A stretch of 64,000 bases of DNA from Tautonia marina (GTDB taxonomy: Bacteria; Planctomycetota; Planctomycetia; Isosphaerales; Isosphaeraceae), in contig NZ_WEZF01000025.1 of the NCBI RefSeq assembly GCF_009177065.1, positions 1 through 64,000 on the forward strand. Direction: 5' to 3'. This document shows, one piece after another, positions 12,110 to 23,379 of the stretch. How positions within the stretch are numbered: position 1 is the stretch's first letter; each line of letters begins with the position of its first letter. The notes below the pieces were generated by a model. That model made no database searches. It saw nothing but the letters and a program-made list of their open reading frames with translations, and was not told the DNA's origin. The translations under genes were made by a program, and so were the position numbers.

Positions 12110-12832
12110 TCAATCAAACGAGACCGGTGAATCCGGTGCAAGTTTCTGGGACGGAGGGAGCGACCGAGGGGATTCCTGGGCTGATCGGGGCGTTCGCTCG
12201 GTCAGAATACGCCCTTGCTCCAGCCGGAACCGACAGTCGGCGAGGAGGTCGGCTTCCTCTGGGTTGTGAGTCACATGCAGGGTGGTGACCCGTGTCGTGC
12301 GCTGGATGGTTTGAAGCAGTTCGATTTGTTGCGATCGCGTCTCGGCATCGAGCGCGCTGAGCGGTTCGTCAAGACACAACACCCGAGGTTGAAAGGAAAG
12401 GGCTCTCCCGATCGCGACGCGCTGACGTTCGCCACCGCTGAGCCCTCGGGGCAAGCGATCGAGCAGGTGGGCGATCCCCAGCAGTTCCGCCAGCAACTCC
12501 ACGCGCTGGCGGATCTGGATCGAACCGACTCGGCGGATCTGGAGCGCGAATTCCAGGTGTTCTCGAACCGTCATGCCGGCGAACAGGGCCCCATCCTGGG
12601 GAACATAGCCGACCCCCCTCGCGGCCGGATTCTGATAAGTCACCTCGGCCCCATGCAGCAGAATGCGCCCCCCATGAACCTTCCGCAGACCGATGATTGC
12701 CTCCAGGATCGTGGTTTTCCCGCATCCGGTTCGCCCCATCAACACCCCGTAATCTCCTGAGGGAACCTCAAGAGACACGTCCTGCAACCGAAAGGCTCCG
12801 GCACGAATGCAGAGGCGATCAATCGTAATCAT
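12110..12832 (-). CDS. ModC-like ABC importer ATPase
   Basis: A 240-residue ABC ATPase of the molybdate/tungstate/sulfate importer type. Walker A GRTGCGKTT lies near residue 33, followed by Q-loop VGYVPQDGALF, signature LSGGERQRVAIGRAL, Walker B VLCLDEPLSALD and H-loop LHVTHN. It ends about 30 residues after the ATPase core, so the C-terminal Mop-like regulatory domain of classical ModC is absent. It follows the ModB-like permease by 43 bases and is the last gene of the six-gene cluster that starts at 18868. It should power import of the ligand bound by the tandem binding protein. The ribosome site is weak, so coupling or leaderless re-initiation is possible. Confidence 0.9.
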   Translation of the reverse strand: MITIDRLCIRAGAFRLQDVSLEVPSGDYGVLMGRTGCGKTTILEAIIGLRKVHGGRILLHGAEVTYQNPAARGVGYVPQDGALFAGMTVREHLEFALQIRRVGSIQIRQRVELLAELLGIAHLLDRLPRGLSGGERQRVAIGRALSFQPRVLCLDEPLSALDAETRSQQIELLQTIQRTTRVTTLHVTHNPEEADLLADCRFRLEQGRILTERTPRSAQESPRSLPPSQKLAPDSPVSFD

Positions 12833-12875
12833 GCAACACCACGTCCGCGAACCAGAAAAAGGCCACCTCGCAAGC

Positions 12876-13799
12876 TCATCGCGTGAATCCGGCCGCGTTG
12901 TGGTCGCCCCAGAGCCGGGTCACGGCGAGGACGGCAATGGCCACCGCGACCATGATCAACGAGACGGCCACCGCCATTTCCAGGTCACCGACGTTCATCT
13001 CCAGGAAGACGGTCGTGGAGAGGACCTCGGTTTTCATCCGGGTCGCCCCGGCGAAAATCAGCAAGGGGCCGAACTCACCAAGCGATCGCGCCCACGCCAG
13101 CGTAAACGCCGTCATCATTCCGCGTCCGGCTTCGGGCAGGACCACCCGGCTGAATGCCTGGGCCCGGCTGCATCCCAGGGCAATCGCAACAGCCTCACAA
13201 CGCGGGTCAATTTGATCAAACGTTGCCTTCATCGTCCGCACGGCAAAGGCCGCGGCCACGGAAAATTGGGCCAGGATGACTGCGGGAATCTGATACACCA
13301 CCGATCGTGCCACGAGGGAAAATGGCGGAAACTGAAAAAGGATCAACAGGCTCAGTCCAATCACCAACGGGGGCAGAATAATCGGGATATCCAGAATTGC
13401 ATCCAACACCCGACGTCCCGGAAACCGATGCCGCGCGATCAAGTAACCCAGCGGCACCGCCACGAGGACCGACAGCACTGCGGACAGGGTGCAGGAGATC
13501 AGGCTCAGCCAGATCGAATAACGAATCTTCGGATCGGCCAGGGCCCTACCGATCGGTCCCTCACGCCAGAAGCCGTCCCAAAGACTTGAAGAATCCGTCA
13601 TCGCCCGCGATGTTTGCTGCGCCATGTAGGTGCCGTCAGCCAGCAGCATGGCAACAATCAGGATCACATACGTGGACCCGATGAAGCTCAGGGCGAGAAA
13701 AAAACCCAGGTTCGCCACGATCAGGCTCATCGCTCCCGGTTGCCGCCCCAGGGGTGAACCCTCCCCATGAACCCGAGCGGCCGTCGGCTCAATCGACAC
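12876..13799 (-). CDS. ModB/TupB-like ABC importer permease
   Basis: Up to 307 residues with about six membrane segments. The EAA loop (EAVAIALGCSRAQAFSRVVL) that docks on the ATPase is clear, and the IPIILPPLVIGLSLLILF segment is characteristic of molybdate/tungstate/sulfate permeases. The longest frame starts with GTG at 13799 and overlaps the binding-protein gene by 11 bases; the internal ATG at 13730, preceded by GGGAG and starting MSLIVANLGFFLAL, is an equally good start and would remove 23 hydrophilic residues. Partners are the binding protein upstream and the ATPase downstream. The substrate cannot be read from the permease; the odd binding protein suggests it may not be molybdate. Confidence 0.9.
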   Translation of the reverse strand: MSIEPTAARVHGEGSPLGRQPGAMSLIVANLGFFLALSFIGSTYVILIVAMLLADGTYMAQQTSRAMTDSSSLWDGFWREGPIGRALADPKIRYSIWLSLISCTLSAVLSVLVAVPLGYLIARHRFPGRRVLDAILDIPIILPPLVIGLSLLILFQFPPFSLVARSVVYQIPAVILAQFSVAAAFAVRTMKATFDQIDPRCEAVAIALGCSRAQAFSRVVLPEAGRGMMTAFTLAWARSLGEFGPLLIFAGATRMKTEVLSTTVFLEMNVGDLEMAVAVSLIMVAVAIAVLAVTRLWGDHNAAGFTR

Positions 13800-15444
13800 G
13801 AGCAGCGTCCTCGGCTTCAGGGGTGGTGGCGATCGGTGAGGGGCGATTCAGCAGGAACTCGAACCCGGCCGCCGTGAAGGCTTCGGGGCTGGACGTCACC
13901 CGATTGTAGAGGCGCCGGGAGAGGGCCTTGTGATCGCTGTTCCGAGCAATGCTCAGGGGTTGAATCGCCTGGTTCAACGTGGAATCGATCCGAACCACGT
14001 CGATGGCATCCTGGCTTGCCAGGGTGTCGCAATGATAGGCAATGGCGGCATCGACGTGGCCGGTCACCACATCGGGAACAAGCAAGGCGGACGACGACTT
14101 CTCGACGACGACCTCGCCCGGCTGCCCTTGCTTCTCCTTGAGCCGATCGTAGAGTCCTTCCCTGGCGAGCAGGCGGCGAGTCAAGGCGCCGATGGTACAC
14201 TGGTCGGGCTGGCCGACGGCAACGCGAACCCCAGGCTCAAGCAGGTTGTCAAGCGTGGAGACCTTCGTGTTTCCTTTCGGAACGACGATCACGATCTCAG
14301 TCGACGACACCGAAGCGGCATCCTGAAACCATTCCTTGACGTTTTCCAGATAGTACTCATCGCACGCCATGTAAATATCAGGAAAGCCAAGATCAGTCCG
14401 CTGATCGTCGATCGTCTTCATGCGGCCGGTGAGAATGCCACAACCGTCGTAGATCGTGTTCACCTCGACCCCTTCCCGGGCGGCAAACTCCTGAACGATC
14501 GTCTCAACGGCCTTGCGATTCACGGCGCCGCAGAAAAAGGTAATTTGCGGCCGATCGGCCCAGACGTCTCCCTCAACGGGTTGCAAACCGGCCTCCTTGA
14601 ACACCGGCAAGCCGCGATCGCGGGCCGTCAGATACCGAGCGAACTTCAGGGCAGCGGTTGGCTGTCGAGAGGCGTGCAAAACGGCCACACTGACGAGGTT
14701 GGGCGGCCCATCCAGCTCGGGCAGGGAAATCGGGTCCAAATCGTCGCGATAGCCGGAGGCCTTTGCGGTGAAGTCCCAGACGATCCCCACATCGGCCGCG
14801 CCCACTTTCACGTCGTTGGCCACGTCGTTTACTGTCGGCTTGAAGACGCCAGAGCGTGTGACCTGCTCCTCCAGACGATCCCACCGCGTCCCTTCGCCGT
14901 CGGCCTGTCCTTCGAGGACCTGACGTACTGCTCGACCAACCGCGGCCTGATCGGGGCTGGGCATCGAAACGGTCAGATCGTCCCGGAGGAGGTCGTCGAA
15001 CGACTCGACCCCCTTGGGGTTTCCTTCACGCACGACGACCACGAGACGCATCTCGGCGATCGGCAGCACCTCGGCCGCCAGACCACGATCGACCGCCTCT
15101 TGCGTGTAGAAATCATCACCCGCGAGATAGAGGTCGGCGGAGTCGAATTTGTTGATCTCGATCTGATTGAGCAAGGTATTCGAGCCGCCGTACTGCAAGT
15201 CCACCTCGACCCCGGTTTCGTCGGTATAGGCTCGGGCAACGCGTTCGACGGGCTCTCGGAGTCCGGCGGCGCAGAACATGGTGATGCGATCGGCGGCGGG
15301 TTCCTCGCCCGGCCCACCCATCCAGAGAAGGCCGATCAGGGCGGCAATCAGGGCCACGGCTCCCAGTACCAACCCCCAGAGACTGCTGATTCGACCCCAT
15401 CGACCGCGATGACCAGCATCAGAACGGCATCTCACAGGACCCAT
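13789..15444 (-). CDS. Membrane-anchored tandem solute-binding protein with Cys-lined second domain
   Basis: A 551-residue protein: an N-terminal membrane anchor or uncleaved signal (residues 19-42), then two complete ModA-like type II binding domains, about 53-290 and 300-535. In both, the five ligand-loop regions can be aligned to ModA. Domain 1 has FCAAG, YGGSNT, LAGDD, SPDQAA and VWDFT. Domain 2 has cysteine in every loop: FFCGAV (C305), DGCGIL (C335), MACDEY (C361), PDQCTIG (C416) and YHCDTL (C472), and no other cysteine. That suggests a thiolate ligand site or disulfide chemistry. It overlaps the permease gene downstream and follows the LolD-type ATPase gene by 58 bases. The ATG at 15444, after GAGTGAGG, avoids overlap with the preceding gene. 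Confidence 0.85.
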   Translation of the reverse strand: MGPVRCRSDAGHRGRWGRISSLWGLVLGAVALIAALIGLLWMGGPGEEPAADRITMFCAAGLREPVERVARAYTDETGVEVDLQYGGSNTLLNQIEINKFDSADLYLAGDDFYTQEAVDRGLAAEVLPIAEMRLVVVVREGNPKGVESFDDLLRDDLTVSMPSPDQAAVGRAVRQVLEGQADGEGTRWDRLEEQVTRSGVFKPTVNDVANDVKVGAADVGIVWDFTAKASGYRDDLDPISLPELDGPPNLVSVAVLHASRQPTAALKFARYLTARDRGLPVFKEAGLQPVEGDVWADRPQITFFCGAVNRKAVETIVQEFAAREGVEVNTIYDGCGILTGRMKTIDDQRTDLGFPDIYMACDEYYLENVKEWFQDAASVSSTEIVIVVPKGNTKVSTLDNLLEPGVRVAVGQPDQCTIGALTRRLLAREGLYDRLKEKQGQPGEVVVEKSSSALLVPDVVTGHVDAAIAYHCDTLASQDAIDVVRIDSTLNQAIQPLSIARNSDHKALSRRLYNRVTSSPEAFTAAGFEFLLNRPSPIATTPEAEDAARVD

Positions 15445-15502
15445 GACCTCACTCACCAGGAGAAGGAATATCAAGATGAAAACGCGGACGCCTGCCGATC
15501 CA

Positions 15503-16177
15503 TCAGGCGATCGCCGACTCGGAGACTCGGGAGCCATCTTGCATTCGGATCTCGAGATCCGCGTGTTCCGCCGCCAGCGGGTCGTGAGTGACCAGCAAGA
15601 CCCCGCCGCCTTGCTTGGCGAAATCGACCAGCACACTGAGCACGATGTCGGCGTTCTCTCGGTCGAGGTTGCCGGTCGGCTCGTCGGCCAGAATCAGGCT
15701 TGGGCGATTCAGCAACGCACGAGCCAGAGCGGTGCGCTGGCGTTCTCCGCTACTCAGCTCGACGGGCAGGTGATCGCGACGAGAAGCAAGGCCGAAGCGC
15801 TCGATCAACTCCTCGGCCCGACCACGAGCCCCCTCGGTGGCGTTGGCAAGCGTCGGGGCGAGCACATTGTCGAGGACGCTCAGATACGGCACCAGGTGAA
15901 ACTGCTGGAAGACGAACCCGAGATGACGCGCCCGGAACACGGCCCTCGCGTCAGGCGAAAGGGCGTACGGATCCTCTCCGTTCACCAGAACCGAGCCACG
16001 ATCCGGGCGCAGCAAGCCGCCGGCCATCAACAACAAGGTCGATTTGCCGCAGCCGCTTGGGCCGCGAACGGCGAGGAACTGGCCGGGCTCGATCGCGAGC
16101 GAGACCTCCTGGACGGCCCGGACGGTCCCCTGCGGCCCTCGAAACGACTTGCTGACATCGGTCATGGAAAGCAACAT
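15503..16177 (-). CDS. LolD/MacB-type ABC ATPase
   Basis: A 224-residue ATPase of the LolD/MacB/FtsE class: Walker A GPSGCGKST near residue 40, LGFVFQQFHLVPYLSV Q-loop with the class-specific QQF, signature LSSGERQRTALARAL, Walker B LILADEPTGNLD, and H-loop LLVTHD. This class works with FtsX-like permeases by mechanotransmission (lipoprotein release, efflux or cell-wall control) rather than classic substrate translocation. The FtsX-type permease gene is immediately upstream and ends one base before an alternative GTG start at 16186; I prefer the ATG at 16177, which follows GAGTGG. The binding-protein gene comes next. Confidence 0.92.
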   Translation of the reverse strand: MLLSMTDVSKSFRGPQGTVRAVQEVSLAIEPGQFLAVRGPSGCGKSTLLLMAGGLLRPDRGSVLVNGEDPYALSPDARAVFRARHLGFVFQQFHLVPYLSVLDNVLAPTLANATEGARGRAEELIERFGLASRRDHLPVELSSGERQRTALARALLNRPSLILADEPTGNLDRENADIVLSVLVDFAKQGGGVLLVTHDPLAAEHADLEIRMQDGSRVSESAIA

Positions 16178-16186
16178 GAGCACCAC

Positions 16187-17542
16187 TCAATCAGCGTGAA
16201 GCACGGTGGCCGGGTCTCGACGGCTGACGAGAATCGCCGGGAGCCAGCTGGCGACGACCGACAGCAAGGGGGCGAACAGCAACGAGAACACCAGCACCAC
16301 GGCAAACGAGCCCGTTCCGTTCAGCTCTCGAAGGCCGACCGTCGTCGAGGTCCCTTGCCCGACCCAAAGCCCGATCACCAGACCGAGCAAGGCCCCGAGG
16401 ATCGCCCCTCCCAGCCCAACCAACACCGCCTTGGTCAGAAATGCCGTGAGAATTTGACGCGACCGCAGGCCGATGGCCCGGAGAATGCCGATCTCGCCGC
16501 TACGCTGGCGGGCATTGCCGAACGCAAGCAACCCGACCCAGACCGCCGCGGCCAGCACAGCAAAAGGGACGAGTACGCCCGCAAATTGTTCCCTCCTGCG
16601 CTCGATCTCGGCCCGGCCAGCGGCCTCGTGTTGCAAGGCGTCGTCTCCGGCGCGTAATTCCTGTTCGAGCGCCTGCTCGGCGGTCTCCTTGGCCTGGGTG
16701 CGAGCCTCGGCCCGAGCCAGGGCCTGTGAGTACCGTTCGATCACCTTCGTGCCGGGCAAGATCGCGCTGATCTCCGCCCGAATCATGGCCAGACGATCCC
16801 CTGCGCAATCACATTCGAGCGCCAGGATTGCGTGAATCAGATTCTCCAGCCCAAGCAGCTCCTGGGCCTGGCCCAGATCGATCCAGATTGTCACGTCGTC
16901 ACTCGATCCGCGCGGAGGGTGCAAGGTCGAGATGGTGAACTCCTTGCCCATCAAGGTGACGCGGTCCCCTTCCGAAAGGCCGAGACGCTGGTGAATCTCG
17001 GAACCGACCACCATCTTGCCGGGCTCGACGGCATCAAGGAGTGGTTTCTTGAGCCCTCGATGCATGATCGGCACCTCGCCTCGTGTGCCGGTGAGAATCA
17101 CGTCGAGGTCGTGTTCGTCCCAGTGAATCCGCTGCGTGACGCTCGGCAAGAGATGGTTGACGGTCACGATATCGGAATTGGCCAGGCGATCGACGTAGTT
17201 CTCGGGCATCGTCTCGGACAGGGTGCCGTCGAGGTGGAGTTCGGTCAGGTCCTGACCTTCGGGAAGAATCAGGACGTTGAAGCCGAGCCCGAGCATCGAC
17301 TTGCGGATCTCGTCCTGCAAGGCCGCGCCGGCCTGTTCGACCTCGGCCCGGCGATCGGCCACCCGCTGCTCGATCTCGGCCTGCTTGCGGCCGAGGATGT
17401 CGGCTGTGACCACGCGATCGAGTCTCAGCAGGGTTTCGGAACCAACCACGCACGCCACGGCGACCGCCACCGAAACCATCGACAGCACGAAATTGAGCTT
17501 CCGATGGCCGATCTCACGAAGCACCAGATGATGAAGGGTCAT
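16187..17542 (-). CDS. FtsX/LolC-type ABC permease with a CxC motif
   Basis: A 451-residue MacB/FtsX-family permease: one N-terminal membrane segment (about 17-35), a large periplasmic MacB-PCD-like domain with a coiled segment (about 48-320), then three membrane segments (about 325-345, 368-392, 415-440) with the family's RSGEIGILRAIG cytoplasmic loop. The periplasmic domain has Cys244 and Cys246 in ILALECDCAGD, plus an HWDEHDLDVIL segment. The pair could bind a metal or form redox contacts; it recalls the ECQC motif in the secreted protein encoded just upstream. The gene lies 51 bases after that gene and is followed directly by its ATPase. Substrate unknown. Confidence 0.88.
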   Translation of the reverse strand: MTLHHLVLREIGHRKLNFVLSMVSVAVAVACVVGSETLLRLDRVVTADILGRKQAEIEQRVADRRAEVEQAGAALQDEIRKSMLGLGFNVLILPEGQDLTELHLDGTLSETMPENYVDRLANSDIVTVNHLLPSVTQRIHWDEHDLDVILTGTRGEVPIMHRGLKKPLLDAVEPGKMVVGSEIHQRLGLSEGDRVTLMGKEFTISTLHPPRGSSDDVTIWIDLGQAQELLGLENLIHAILALECDCAGDRLAMIRAEISAILPGTKVIERYSQALARAEARTQAKETAEQALEQELRAGDDALQHEAAGRAEIERRREQFAGVLVPFAVLAAAVWVGLLAFGNARQRSGEIGILRAIGLRSRQILTAFLTKAVLVGLGGAILGALLGLVIGLWVGQGTSTTVGLRELNGTGSFAVVLVFSLLFAPLLSVVASWLPAILVSRRDPATVLHAD

Positions 17543-17593
17543 GACCGTTCAATCCTCACAATCGACCAAACCATTCGAGAGACCATGACACGT

Positions 17594-18868
17594 TTAACCG
17601 TTTCCCCGCATCAAGACCACGCCGACAAGCACCACCACGACCCCGATGGCCCCGACGATGAGCATGGCACTGAGCCCCGGCCCGGCCCTTGTGGCGGAGC
17701 GTGACGTCACAGGAGCGACCGCCCGGTGATCGTCGGTCGCTTCGTAAGCATGGTCATGAATCGCATCCGACGACTCCGAATCCGAATCAGGTTCGAGGGC
17801 ATCCGGAGCAGGAGCGGCGACGGTGGTGAGGATCTCGGGTTCGACCGGGTCGGCCGATAGCTCCGGGGTGGCGGCGAAGGGCAGGGGAGGAGCGTCCGCC
17901 ACGTCGGCAAAGCTCGCGAGGCCGCCCAGGGCGGGCATGTGGCCGTCCTCTTGAATCGTCGGCACGATCCAGCGGTCCCAGTCGACGGCCATCACCAGGT
18001 CAGCGCCGGGGTTCTCGGCCTTGACCGTGCACTGACACTCGCCGGTCAAATAGCGCGCGGCCTCCTCGATCGTGGTCGGCACGATCCCCTGACCGACGAG
18101 GGCGTACAGGGCCCGGCCTCGGCCGAAGATGGGGAAGATCATCGGCTCGTTGGCGAACTCGGGGTCGTTGAGGTCGGGCTCAACGTTCAAAAGCATGGCG
18201 ACAAGAGCACGTTCGGCCGGATCGTCACGACGGACCCGGATTGACGAAAACCTCAGCTTAAGGGGTTCCGACTCGGCCGAGAGCAAGTCTTCCGCCGCGA
18301 GTTCGGGCAGTTCCAGGGTCTCTTCCAACCGGGCAATCTCGGCCGAGAGGGTCAGAAACGCCTTCTCGTCCTGTTCGGCCTGGCCGCTTTCGAGCAGGAC
18401 CCAGACGACGGAGTGATCTTCGAGCAACCGCCGGGAAATCTCCTTCCGCGCGGGAGAGTCGAGCAGGTGATCGACGTGCTCCTCCGACAGCTCCAGGGTC
18501 AAGACGGTCGCCGTCGGCCCGAGCCGGGCGGGAGTTTGCAAGACGAGCAAAGGGCGATCGAGGGGCGGTTGACCGAGGGACTCCCAGACGGCGGTTTCAA
18601 GCGGATCAAGCGATCCCTCGACATCCACCGTCATCACCCGCAGGTTGGCCTCGTTGGCAAGGTTCGATTGCCGGAGCCGATCCACGAGCGCCTGGTCCGA
18701 GTCGCTCAGCTCCCCCCGATGCACCACGGCCAGCGGGAAGTGATCGGGTGGCCACAGCTCAAGGGCATAGCGAAAAACGGGGACCGAGCAGGCCGAGCCG
18801 AGCGACCCGACGCCGACGGACAGGGCAACCGCCACCATCGCCGCAAGAAACCGTTGTGAACGTCTCAT
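17594..18868 (-). CDS. Secreted, membrane-tethered protein with CSVPVFRYAL start and CxC motif
   Basis: A 424-residue exported protein, first gene of the six-gene cluster. After a signal sequence (residues 6-26) it reads CSVPVFRYALELWPPDHFPL; Cys27 could be lipidated, although the preceding LGSA is an imperfect lipobox. The middle (about 45-300) looks like a compact mixed alpha/beta domain rich in acidic residues with ECQCTVKAENPGADLVMAVD (C279, C281). A disordered Pro/Asp/Ser-rich linker (about 330-400) leads to a C-terminal membrane helix (about 400-420). I believe similar proteins recur next to FtsX/LolD genes in planctomycetes, but cannot search. A role as periplasmic partner of the FtsX-type transporter is inference. 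ATG 18868 has GAGG ten bases upstream; longer frames to 19036 lack a signal peptide at the start. Confidence 0.75.
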   Translation of the reverse strand: MRRSQRFLAAMVAVALSVGVGSLGSACSVPVFRYALELWPPDHFPLAVVHRGELSDSDQALVDRLRQSNLANEANLRVMTVDVEGSLDPLETAVWESLGQPPLDRPLLVLQTPARLGPTATVLTLELSEEHVDHLLDSPARKEISRRLLEDHSVVWVLLESGQAEQDEKAFLTLSAEIARLEETLELPELAAEDLLSAESEPLKLRFSSIRVRRDDPAERALVAMLLNVEPDLNDPEFANEPMIFPIFGRGRALYALVGQGIVPTTIEEAARYLTGECQCTVKAENPGADLVMAVDWDRWIVPTIQEDGHMPALGGLASFADVADAPPLPFAATPELSADPVEPEILTTVAAPAPDALEPDSDSESSDAIHDHAYEATDDHRAVAPVTSRSATRAGPGLSAMLIVGAIGVVVVLVGVVLMRGNG

Positions 18869-19545
18869 GGAGAGCCTCGGCGGGGGGGCGGAGGGCCGGT
18901 CAGTACGACCCTTGGGCAAGCGAACGATCACGGTCGGTTCGCTGCCAGACGTCCTCATCCCCTGGAAATTACCTGACAAACGGAAGGTACTCGCGCGGGT
19001 TGAACGTCCTCGATCCGTGGAGAATCCGTGAAGCAACCTTGAATCAGGTTCAGTGAAACGCCAATCATCATGACCGAATTGATTCTTCCACTTGTGTGAA
19101 TTCGGAAACCTTCAAAGTCGGCAACGAGTGTCAGCGGAACCCTCAATCACGGCAAAGGAAGATCGTGTGAAAATGAGCCTGACGACACTTTTTCATCACC
19201 CTCGGGATCGACGGTCATGATACGGTAAGCGATCTCGTTCGCCAAGCACAATCAGGCCGCACGACAGACGTTGCGTCGCTTGCGAGGCGGGTTCAGGCCA
19301 TCGCCATCGGCTCGTTCCTTCGATCGTCCCATGTCGATTGATTGTCGATCTCCCTTTGGACGGGAATCCGAAACCTCGTGAGTGATTGTAATGCCCCGAC
19401 AGCCTGAGCGACATTCTCCGGACAAGCTTCTTCAAGGTTCCGGCCGTGCAAATCGACGAGCACCCCTCGTCGCTGGTATCATTCACTCGTCGCCTGTAAG
19501 TCCTGGAAAACATGCCGTGCCGTCGTCTCGCTCGCAGGAGGAATC
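18869..19545. other. Divergent intergenic region without a supported gene
   Basis: This 677-base stretch separates the minus-strand transporter cluster from the plus-strand propeller gene and should hold both promoters. I see a 7-base inverted pair CCGAATT...AATTCGG with 18 bases between (19074-19105) and a perfect small hairpin CGACGAG-CACCC-CTCGTCG (19454-19472). No convincing -35/-10 pair was found by eye. Open frames on either strand lack domains. Confidence 0.5.
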
Positions 19546-22500
19546 ATGCCGAGGTTGATTCATCATCATGGAAGATGGCTCGTTGCCAGCCTTCTGTTCA
19601 TCGTCGGAGTTCCAAGTGTTTGCCTGGCCAACGACTGGCCGATGTGGCGGCACGATGCCGGACGAAGCGCCACAACCACCGCCGGATTGCCCGACGACCT
19701 GACCTTGAGCTGGTCACGCGAACTGGGGCCACCGGCTCCCGCCTGGCCCCCCGAGCAAGACTATCACGGCAAACTCGAATTCGACCGCACCTATCAACCC
19801 ATCGTTCTCGGTCAGCGCATCATTGTTCCCTCGATGGCGTCCGATTCGGTCACGGCCTACGACACCCGAACCGGCCAGGAGCTGTGGCGGTTCTATGCCG
19901 ATGGCCCCGTCCGCTTCGCCCCGGTCGGCCACAACGGCAGGGTCTCGTTCGTGTCCGATGATGGGCACCTTTACTGCGTCTCGGCCGACGACGGCTCCCT
20001 CATCTGGAAGGTGCGCGGCGGTCCTGACCAGCGGGCGATCCTTGGGAACGAACGGCTCATTTCCTCCTGGCCGGCTCGGGGAGCCCCGGTCCTGTCCGAC
20101 GACGGCCTGATCTACTTCGGCGCGGGCATCTGGCCCTTCATGGGCATCTTTCTGCACGCCGTCGATGCCGCCTCGGGCGAGATCGTCTGGACCAACAGCG
20201 GCACCGGCGCCATCTACAACCTGCACCAGCACGGCGGAGCCGACGCCTTTGGCGGCATCGCTCCACAGGGTTACATGGCCATCTCGGGCGATCATCTGGT
20301 CGTCGGTGGTGGTCTGACCGTCCCCGCCTTGTTCAACCGAAAAACAGGGGAATTCCTGGCGTTCGAGCAGTCGCATGCCGCGGTTGGCAAAGGGACTGGC
20401 GGGTTCGACCTGGCCGCCTTGGGCGACTATTACTTCAACGCCGGTTTGCTCTTTCATACCGAAGACGGCATGCCCCGGCTCTCGATCGGCACCGGACTCC
20501 CGCTTTTGGGAGACAACGAGATCACCATCGTCACTCAAGGCGAGCTGATTCGTTTCTCCACCGACATGACCACGGTCGAGGTCCAAACCACCGATCGCCG
20601 CGGCAAACCGGTCACGCAGCAAAAGCACTCCCTCGCCGAACTCGGTCGGGCAAAACTCCCGGTTGCGGTCGATCGCTTGCTCCTGCAGGCCGAATCTCGG
20701 ATCGTCGTCCTCACCCAGGACGGCACCATCGCCCTCCTCGATTGGACCGACACCGCCAACCCCCTTTCCCTGGTCAGCGAACACACCATCTCCGGCACCG
20801 TTGACCATGTCCTCGCCGCCGACAATCGTCTGTTCGTCGTCACCGAGGAAGGCTGGTTGCACAGTTTGTCGGCCGACACGCAGGACGCGAAGCCCCAGCA
20901 GCACCGGCTCGCCTCAACCCCGGCACCCGAGCAGGATTCGCCCGCCGCTCGACGAGCTGGCACCCTCCTCGACCAGACCGGCAAGCGCGACGGCATCGCC
21001 CTGGTCTGGGGAATCGACGACGGCATGCTTGTTGAAGCCCTGATTGCTCAATCGAACCTTCGGATCATCGCCGTCGATGCCGACCCGGCCCGCGTTTCCT
21101 CGTTGCGCCGACGCCTCGACGACGCTCGCGTTTACGGTCATCGCGCTCACGTCCTCAATGCCCCGCCTCACGAATTCCCGTTTCCGCCTTACCTGGCCGA
21201 GCTGGTCGTCTCAGAGCGGCTCGACGGGTCCATCTGGAGCCCCGAGGCGAATCCGGATCAGTCCATCGCCTTCCTCCAGCGTCTCTTTCACACGCTCCGC
21301 CCCTACGGCGGCGTGGCCGCGCTTCCCCTCGCTCCCGAAACGCATTCCCGGCTCGCCGAGCACGTCTCGACCGCCGAACTGGCCAATGCGTCGGTCGAAT
21401 CGTTCGGCGCATTCGTCACGCTCACTCGCGTGGGCCCCTTGCCGGGGGCCGGGCAGTGGACCCACCAGTACGGAAGTTCGGCCAACACGGTCGATTCCGG
21501 AGACAAACTCGTCAAGGCTCCGCTCGGGATGCTCTGGTTCGGCGGCCCGACAAACTTCGACGCCCTCCCGCGCCACGGCCAGGGACCGATCCCTCAGGTC
21601 GCCGGTGGTCGCCTCATCATCGAGGGAGTCAACTCGATCAGCGCCCGATGCGTCTACACCGGCCGCACTCTTTGGCGTCACGAGTTCCCCGACATCGGGT
21701 TCCCCTATAAGGCCAACAACCATACGTTCTCGGGAACCGTTTATATCAACAACCAACCCGGTGCGAACTTCATCGGCAGTAACTACGTCTCCTTGCCCGA
21801 CGCCATCTATGTGGTCTACAAAAACGAGTGCCACCGACTCGATCCGACCAATGGCGAGACCGTCGCCACGTTCCGATTGCCCTCAAGCTCCGACGACGAC
21901 ACGCCCGACGGCTGGGGCTACATCGGTGTGACGGGAGATTACCTTGTCGCCGGAGCATCTCCTCAAATCTTCGATCAAAACGCCCGCCTGGGCGAGAAAA
22001 ACTGGAACGCCACCAGCAGCCAGCGCGTGGTGGTGATGAACCGGCACTCGGGCAAGGTCCTCTGGTCCCGCACCGCGACCTACGGCTTCCGCCACAACGC
22101 CATCGTCCCGGTGGGTGAGATGGTGTTCCTCATTGATCGTCTCTCCGATGGCGCTCTGGATCTGCTCGCTCGCCGAGGCCGCAAAAGCAACGATCTGCCC
22201 GTGCTTTCCGCTCACAACCTGGCGACCGGCGAGGAACTTTGGAGCAGCGCCGAGAGCATTTTCGGCACCTGGCTCGGCTACTCCGAGGCCCACGACATCC
22301 TCATCCAGGGCGGACGCACCGGCGGCCGCGAACACCTGCCGGACGAACCCTCCGAACGAATCGTTGCCTTTCGCGGCACCACCGGCAAGATTCTCTGGGA
22401 CAATCCGATCCGATACACCGGCCCCCTGGTCATCCGAGGGAATCAAATCATCTCCTCCGGTCGAAACGATGGCGCGGTCGATCTGCTCACCGGTGAAATC

Positions 22501-23379
22501 CAGACCCGCTTCCATCCCATCACTGGCGCGGAACTTCCCTGGACCCACACCCGAACCTACGGTTGCGGCACGGTTCTGGCTTGCGAAAATTTGCTGACCT
22601 TCCGATCCGGTGCGGCCGGGTTTTTCGACCTGAAGAACGACGGCGGCACCGGCAATTTCGGCGGGTTCAAGGCCGGTTGCACCCCGAACCTCGTTCCGGC
22701 CGACGGCATTCTCAACGCCCCCGACTACACCCGCACTTGCAGTTGCTCGTATCAAAACCAGACCTCGCTGGCGATGATTCACATGCCCGATGTCGAAACC
22801 TGGACCTACAGTACCGTCCCCGCTCCCAGGGAGGACGAGGACGTTCAACGCATCGGCATCAATTTCAATGCGCCCGGCGACCGCCTGGCCGAAAGTGGCA
22901 CCCTCTGGGTCGACTATCCGAGCATCGCCGGCCCCTCGCCCGACATCCCGGTCAAACTCGTGGCTGGTGAGATGACCGACACCTTCCGCAATCACTCCGC
23001 CCTCCTGGCATCGACCGATGGAACCAGTGCGCTCGCCGGTCAAACCCTGCCGTGGGTCGCGGCCTCGGGCTTCCAGGGCAATGTTTCCCTCGAACTGACC
23101 CTACGGACGGGTGATGACCTGCCCGAATCGTCGTATACCGTTCGCCTCCACTTCCTCGAACCCGACGATGTTGCCCCCGGCCGTCGCGTGTTCGACGTGG
23201 CCCTGCAGGGCGAGACCAGGGAATCCGGCCTCGATGTCGTTGCAACCGCCGGAGGCCGACTCCGCCCCCTCGTTCGTGAGTACCCGAACATCACCGTTAC
23301 CGACGTCCTTCGTCTCGACCTCAAAGGGACCGATGGCAGCCTGCCCCCGGTCCTCTCCGGCATCGAGATTCTCAAGTAA
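19546..23379 (+). CDS. Secreted PQQ-type beta-propeller protein with embedded methyltransferase-like domain and malectin end
   Basis: A 1277-residue exported protein. Signal peptide (residues 10-28), first group of PQQ/WD-like propeller repeats (about 30-465, e.g. TAYDTRTGQELWRF), then a Rossmann-like insert (about 470-630: IALVWGIDDG, IIAVDADPARV) resembling a SAM-dependent methyltransferase, then a second propeller group (about 640-1090) with a Cys-rich CTRTCSCSYQNQTS segment that may be replaced here by TRTCSCSY, and a C-terminal malectin-like carbohydrate-binding domain (about 1100-1277). The Rossmann glycine motif is degenerate (GIDDG instead of GCGDG), so activity is doubtful. Ribosome site GCAGGAGG precedes ATG 19546. 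A role in polysaccharide binding or dehydrogenation at the cell surface is inference. Confidence 0.82.
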   Translation: MPRLIHHHGRWLVASLLFIVGVPSVCLANDWPMWRHDAGRSATTTAGLPDDLTLSWSRELGPPAPAWPPEQDYHGKLEFDRTYQPIVLGQRIIVPSMASDSVTAYDTRTGQELWRFYADGPVRFAPVGHNGRVSFVSDDGHLYCVSADDGSLIWKVRGGPDQRAILGNERLISSWPARGAPVLSDDGLIYFGAGIWPFMGIFLHAVDAASGEIVWTNSGTGAIYNLHQHGGADAFGGIAPQGYMAISGDHLVVGGGLTVPALFNRKTGEFLAFEQSHAAVGKGTGGFDLAALGDYYFNAGLLFHTEDGMPRLSIGTGLPLLGDNEITIVTQGELIRFSTDMTTVEVQTTDRRGKPVTQQKHSLAELGRAKLPVAVDRLLLQAESRIVVLTQDGTIALLDWTDTANPLSLVSEHTISGTVDHVLAADNRLFVVTEEGWLHSLSADTQDAKPQQHRLASTPAPEQDSPAARRAGTLLDQTGKRDGIALVWGIDDGMLVEALIAQSNLRIIAVDADPARVSSLRRRLDDARVYGHRAHVLNAPPHEFPFPPYLAELVVSERLDGSIWSPEANPDQSIAFLQRLFHTLRPYGGVAALPLAPETHSRLAEHVSTAELANASVESFGAFVTLTRVGPLPGAGQWTHQYGSSANTVDSGDKLVKAPLGMLWFGGPTNFDALPRHGQGPIPQVAGGRLIIEGVNSISARCVYTGRTLWRHEFPDIGFPYKANNHTFSGTVYINNQPGANFIGSNYVSLPDAIYVVYKNECHRLDPTNGETVATFRLPSSSDDDTPDGWGYIGVTGDYLVAGASPQIFDQNARLGEKNWNATSSQRVVVMNRHSGKVLWSRTATYGFRHNAIVPVGEMVFLIDRLSDGALDLLARRGRKSNDLPVLSAHNLATGEELWSSAESIFGTWLGYSEAHDILIQGGRTGGREHLPDEPSERIVAFRGTTGKILWDNPIRYTGPLVIRGNQIISSGRNDGAVDLLTGEIQTRFHPITGAELPWTHTRTYGCGTVLACENLLTFRSGAAGFFDLKNDGGTGNFGGFKAGCTPNLVPADGILNAPDYTRTCSCSYQNQTSLAMIHMPDVETWTYSTVPAPREDEDVQRIGINFNAPGDRLAESGTLWVDYPSIAGPSPDIPVKLVAGEMTDTFRNHSALLASTDGTSALAGQTLPWVAASGFQGNVSLELTLRTGDDLPESSYTVRLHFLEPDDVAPGRRVFDVALQGETRESGLDVVATAGGRLRPLVREYPNITVTDVLRLDLKGTDGSLPPVLSGIEILK

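Follow-up and report, generated by a model that had tools for sequence, protein, structure and literature searches.

In the DNA analysed here (a window of 64,000 nucleotides from Tautonia marina), the substrate-binding protein (SBP) of a Mod/Wtp-type ABC importer possesses two ModA-like domains, and comparison with homologous sequences lends good support to a predicted thiol pocket in the second of them, to which three cysteines rather than five would contribute. We tentatively propose that this domain 2 may hold a molybdenum- or tungsten-type cargo through cysteine sulfur, which we regard as a realistic possibility somewhat short of probable. The gene and its two domains are located as follows.

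13789..15444, minus strand: tandem ModA-like SBP, open reading frame of 551 aa with two SBP_bac_11 domains
14575..15285, minus strand: domain 1, oxyanion-like, with Ser at the S39 position and one conserved cysteine in loop 1 (C58)
13852..14544, minus strand: domain 2 with the cysteine pocket, predicted from alignment and conservation

Against Pfam, the SBP matched PF13531 in two stretches (234 bits), and the whole protein scored 113.9 bits with the modA model TIGR01256 (cut-off 62.5), the strongest stretch lying in domain 1. A hydrophobic membrane anchor was predicted from the sequence at the N-terminus. In the AlphaFold2 model comprising both domains (pLDDT 94.4, pTM 0.89), residues 3-243 and 251-484 matched ModA structures with Z scores of 24.9-25.7, and both domains thus have the ModA/PBP-II fold; the matches of domain 2 included 2h5y (Z 24.9) and WtpA 3cfz (Z 23.5). 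Cysteines occur in the SBP only at residues 6, 58, 305, 335, 361, 416 and 472. The last five had been given in the initial annotation as the full complement of domain 2, which agrees exactly with the translation of the open reading frame. Their codons, aligned positions in E. coli ModA and conservation among 108 distinct homologous sequences are listed here.

14440..14442, minus strand: C335, equivalent to E. coli ModA S39 (molybdate ligand), conserved in 108/108
14362..14364, minus strand: C361, equivalent to E. coli ModA A58 (P. aeruginosa A79, a listed pocket contact), conserved in 108/108
14197..14199, minus strand: C416, equivalent to E. coli ModA V123 (P. aeruginosa A139, a listed pocket contact), conserved in 91/108
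14530..14532, minus strand: C305, equivalent to E. coli ModA A9, a non-contact by the listing, conserved in 56/108
14029..14031, minus strand: C472, equivalent to E. coli ModA S172, a non-contact by the listing, found in 1/108 (the window only)

In accordance with the earlier observation that each of these cysteines falls into a loop resembling a ModA ligand loop, all five are located at most three residues from the five ModA ligand-loop anchors. The windows around these anchors make up 15% of domain 2, so that such a placement is hardly due to chance (p ~8e-5 in a simple binomial calculation; the anchors were chosen by the analyst). In P. aeruginosa ModA, the ligands are N33, T60, Y141 and I168, and the listed pocket contacts include A79 and A139 (PMC9171197). 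The four ligands correspond to S12, S39, A125 and V152 of E. coli ModA, and mapping by the same offsets would place A79 and A139 at A58 and V123. This mapping is consistent with the ligands listed for A. baumannii ModA (PMC11734730). Profile alignment to E. coli ModA further equated V308 with S12 and Y470 with Y170. Accordingly, domain 2 is devoid of the oxyanion serines of ModA (S12 is replaced by V308 and S39 by C335), and the column of Y470, the counterpart of the ligand Tyr170, is invariant.

Homologues were collected by searching related genomes with the protein and 392 planctomycete genomes with a profile, and by scanning 84,980 species genomes for patterns; the scan returned 397 relatives. 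The 108 distinct domain 2 sequences comprise 79 from the pattern scan and 29 from the protein and profile searches. As two of the scan patterns contain C335 and C361, the 79 sequences are biased with respect to these residues; in the sequences from outside the scan, both cysteines were present in 29 out of 29, and three further divergent members (L169, L170 and L171) retain them as well. C416 is replaced by Ser in 14 and by Ala in 3 of the 108 sequences, so that only C335 and C361 are universal. At the position of C305, the replacements include Ala (25) and Ser (22). Conservation therefore tracks the pocket: the three conserved cysteines sit at ligand or contact positions, whereas the two that are not conserved lie elsewhere. 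The three also come from both lobes, C335 and C361 from lobe 1 and C416 from lobe 2. The thiol site suggested in the initial annotation is hence supported for C335, C361 and C416, which are conserved at pocket positions and among which C335 takes the place of a molybdate-binding serine. A site formed by all five cysteines is not supported, because C472 is private to the window, C305 is freely replaced and neither is found at a listed contact.

Domain 1 indeed lacks four of the five cysteines, as had been pointed out, and the remaining one, C58, is itself conserved in 90 of 104 homologues. Domain 1 has Ser at ModA position 39 and Ala or Gly at 58, and most rows show Trp at 170. When the pocket columns were left out of the tree, domain 2 formed a single clade (100/100); domain 1 was placed apart from it, in a cluster with single-domain binding proteins from other planctomycetes (96/94). 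Since the two domains are not sisters in this tree, a duplication within the gene followed by specialisation of one domain is not supported; the topology is better explained if two older paralogues were fused. Distant relatives of the operon possess two binding proteins, which are either adjacent or fused.

Related binding proteins carry other residues at the pocket. One SBP type has a His at position 58. A sister relationship between domain 2 and this type was rejected because the grouping is absent from the tree, and Cys and His at position 58 therefore arose separately on the tree. In another type, which has a single domain, positions 124 and 152 of the pocket are Cys in all five rows (L153, L154, L156, L158 and L164). 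In the operons of L153 and L154, this SBP is accompanied by genes for a ModE-like HTH protein and a Mop/TOBE protein; the L154 products scored 84 bits (ModE-like, below the cut-off of 98.5) and 89 bits (Mop, above the cut-off). Given this gene content, at least one binding protein with pocket cysteines belongs to a clear molybdenum operon. That the soft ligands vary in kind and position within a single pocket argues, in our view, for a ligand-directed role.

The remaining components of the importer are encoded next to the SBP.

12876..13799, minus strand: ModB/WtpB-type permease, 186 bits with TIGR01581 (cut-off 210.3) and 147.7 with TIGR02141, overlapping the end of the SBP gene
12110..12832, minus strand: ModC/WtpC-type ATPase, top NCBIfam match WtpC with 208 bits (cut-off 440)

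Both proteins are of the Mod/Wtp type, each scoring below the NCBIfam equivalog cut-offs. Among 88 loci with a homologous SBP, whose contigs are often cut, a Mod/Wtp permease adjoins the SBP at 85 and a ModC/WtpC-type ATPase is present at 62. About 30 SBP loci have a gene for a MoeB/ThiF-type E1 protein nearby, and in about 25 of these 30 a small ThiS/MoaD-like open reading frame ending in GG directly precedes it; no ThiS/MoeB pair is found beside the operon in the window. In L040, L051, L053, L086 and others, the ThiS/MoaD-like open reading frame and then the MoeB/ThiF-like gene are located beside ModC or the SBP and belong to the transporter operon.

Two candidate partner enzymes were set aside. 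The tungsten aldehyde oxidoreductase (AFOR) is absent from the window's own genome and showed no association across the 392 genomes (10/49 versus 11.0 expected). A gene for formylmethanofuran dehydrogenase subunit B occurs near the SBP in two loci (L077:9836-11164 and L054:5209-6624); this subunit is nearly universal in the window's class, and its co-occurrence is therefore uninformative. Nine other planctomycete genomes (G170, G199, G314, G353, G354, G367, G389, G390 and G399) encode a homologue of subunit B that scores above the cut-off and bears one in-frame TGA, which perhaps specifies selenocysteine.

We favour molybdenum or tungsten as cargo because the permease and the ATPase as well as the ThiS/MoeB, ModE and Mop neighbours are of the Mo/W type. 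According to this proposal, two distinct ModA-fold domains would serve a membrane-anchored SBP of a Mod/Wtp-type ABC importer. Upon closure of the cleft, the three thiols of domain 2 would bond the cargo directly via their sulfur. This cargo would most likely be molybdenum or tungsten in oxo or thio form, with a soft cation such as Cu(I) as the next choice, and domain 1 would take the plain oxyanion or a second substrate. In WtpA, tungstate is bonded directly via Asp and Glu side chains, and bound molybdate can be reduced (PMC4139814, PMC10221389); this carboxylate-held tungstate is the nearest known chemistry to which a sulfur-held cargo in domain 2 can be likened. Several points speak against the proposal. 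An oxidising periplasm could pair the cysteines as disulfides, and C335 and C361 share a lobe; only two cysteines are universal; the window operon lacks an adjacent ThiS/MoeB pair; and AFOR is absent from the genome and shows no association with the SBP.

Upstream of the SBP gene lie genes for an ATPase, an FtsX-type permease, the exported protein 'VPVF' and a divergently transcribed propeller protein, which recur among the 88 loci.

15503..16186, minus strand: LolD/MacB-type ATPase, 196 bits with TIGR02211, at 33/88 loci
16187..17542, minus strand: FtsX/MacB-type permease (PF02687) with a CxC motif, C244/C246 (codons 16805-16813), and H130
17594..19036, minus strand: exported thioredoxin-fold protein 'VPVF' with a predicted signal peptide, C83 and a CxC motif, C334/C336
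19546..23379, plus strand: PQQ-type propeller protein, divergent (PF13360, PF11721), at 26/88 loci

The CxC motif and H130 of the FtsX-type permease are invariant in all 32 aligned rows. VPVF, whose open reading frame probably starts further downstream than annotated, gave no match in Pfam or NCBIfam. Its three cysteines are invariant in 32/32 rows and again in 26/26, and C83 directly follows the predicted signal peptide. The VPVF model (pLDDT 89.2) matched thioredoxin with a Z score of 9.8 and also PDI-type proteins; the protein belongs to an unnamed family and appears as a membrane-anchored protein with two thioredoxin-like folds. VPVF and the cysteine-bearing domain, with 49 and 51 carriers among the 392 genomes, occur together in 39 of them, compared to 6.4 expected (p ~1e-33, without phylogenetic correction), and are unlinked in some, e.g. 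G058 and G354. In the propeller protein, cysteines 1007, 1045, 1065 and 1067 are kept in 21-24 of 24 rows, and 1065/1067 form a CxC motif. This protein of 1277 aa also contains a Malectin domain and, as judged by eye, a Rossmann-like stretch near residues 470-560.

The main rival ligand would be a soft metal cation, with Cu(I) as the most likely one: the partners carry CxC motifs and a thioredoxin fold, and these features suit copper or redox chemistry no less than Mo/W. Domain 2 would then capture the cation in a two- or three-thiolate site, and the exported thioredoxin-fold and CxC proteins would form a thiolate relay. Invariant cysteines are present in every exported partner, and VPVF, the FtsX domain and the propeller each have a CxC motif among them. 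There are precedents in the thioredoxin-fold copper chaperones Sco1 and TlpA and in the CxC motif of Cox11, and the pairing of the thioredoxin-fold gene with the cysteine-bearing domain in 39 genomes, sometimes unlinked, fits such a relay. However, the ABC components are Mod/Wtp-like, and relatives are located near ModE, Mop, ThiS and MoeB-like genes, so that we consider copper capture unlikely.

Alternatively, a disulfide between C335 and C361, both universal and both in lobe 1, could alter oxyanion affinity as a redox switch maintained by the thioredoxin-fold partner; VPVF has the PDI/thioredoxin fold, and a redox-sensitive disulfide between C141 and C189 of A. baumannii ModA lowers molybdate affinity by about two orders of magnitude (PMC11734730). 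Nevertheless, offsets from the ligands would place that pair at about residues 116 and 164 in E. coli ModA, not at 39, 58 or 123. In addition, C335 takes the position of a ligand serine, a disulfide within lobe 1 needs no cross-lobe C416, and a CxxC motif is lacking in VPVF, so a switch of this kind does not seem likely to us either. The cysteines could also be passive substitutions, the pocket accommodating a small organic ligand or a thio-anion and the sulfur remaining unbonded. Ser to Cys is a small change, C416 varies with Ser, and Y170 of ModA is retained in domain 2; two invariant cysteines across Planctomycetota, Verrucomicrobiota and others, however, would not be expected if they were neutral, and we regard this explanation as quite improbable.

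Returning to a Mo/W-type cargo held by domain 2, the thioredoxin-fold and FtsX-type partners, both with an invariant CxC motif, may serve to maintain the thiols of the pocket in the reduced state or to relay the metal. The operon might thus represent a previously undescribed metal system of planctomycetes and Verrucomicrobia, in which a Mod-type importer combining an oxyanion and a thiolate domain would cooperate with three partners bearing invariant cysteines (the exported VPVF, the propeller protein and an exporter of the FtsX type) to capture, reduce or hand over metal via sulfur ligands outside the cytoplasm; in this full extent, the idea is rather doubtful. No paper on the operon was found in the open-access literature. 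In the Mod/Wtp binding proteins known so far, molybdate or tungstate is held by hydrogen bonds or by carboxylate groups, and a grip through sulfur has, to our knowledge, not been reported. If true, the conserved-cysteine pocket would therefore be a third chemistry for the ModA fold, and the molybdate annotation of hundreds of proteins would become doubtful (397 relatives in one scan). The genome-wide pairing also gives a thioredoxin-fold family without a Pfam model a testable role.

At the search strength used, none of the 36 other family members searched has the operon (12110-23379), and this absence hints at transfer or loss. Its closest relatives are found in other planctomycete families, and the cultured Thalassoglobus neptunius (L067) carries it as well. 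Its GC content is 61-64% versus about 65% in the surroundings, and acquisition by horizontal transfer is possible. No relatives occurred in viral contigs. Misbinning of the contig was rejected, as a neighbouring gene is 81% identical to a relative in the same genus and the difference in GC is small; judged by these features, the contig is most likely a genuine part of the genome.

Among known systems, GlnPQ is an amino acid importer with binding domains fused to the permease. Like the SBP, GlnPQ SBD1-SBD2 (6h30) has two type-II binding domains per chain, and Foldseek matches extend across both, but the identity amounts to only 11%. ModA (E. coli 1amf, P. aeruginosa and A. baumannii 8zj6) shares the fold, the five ligand loops, Tyr170 and the ModB/ModC-type partners. 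In contrast to ModA, the SBP has two domains per chain and a membrane anchor, and its domain 2 carries Val for S12, Cys for S39 and further Cys at positions 58 and 123. A. baumannii ModA likewise has functional cysteines (PMC11734730); C141 and C189, however, are reported to be unique to this species and, by ligand offsets, would occupy other positions than the cysteines of domain 2. The WtpA/WtpC tungstate importer resembles the operon, whose ATPase scores highest with WtpC, and the WtpA ligands Asp160 and Glu218 would find their counterpart in the cysteines of domain 2, likened by ligand type and not by aligned position.
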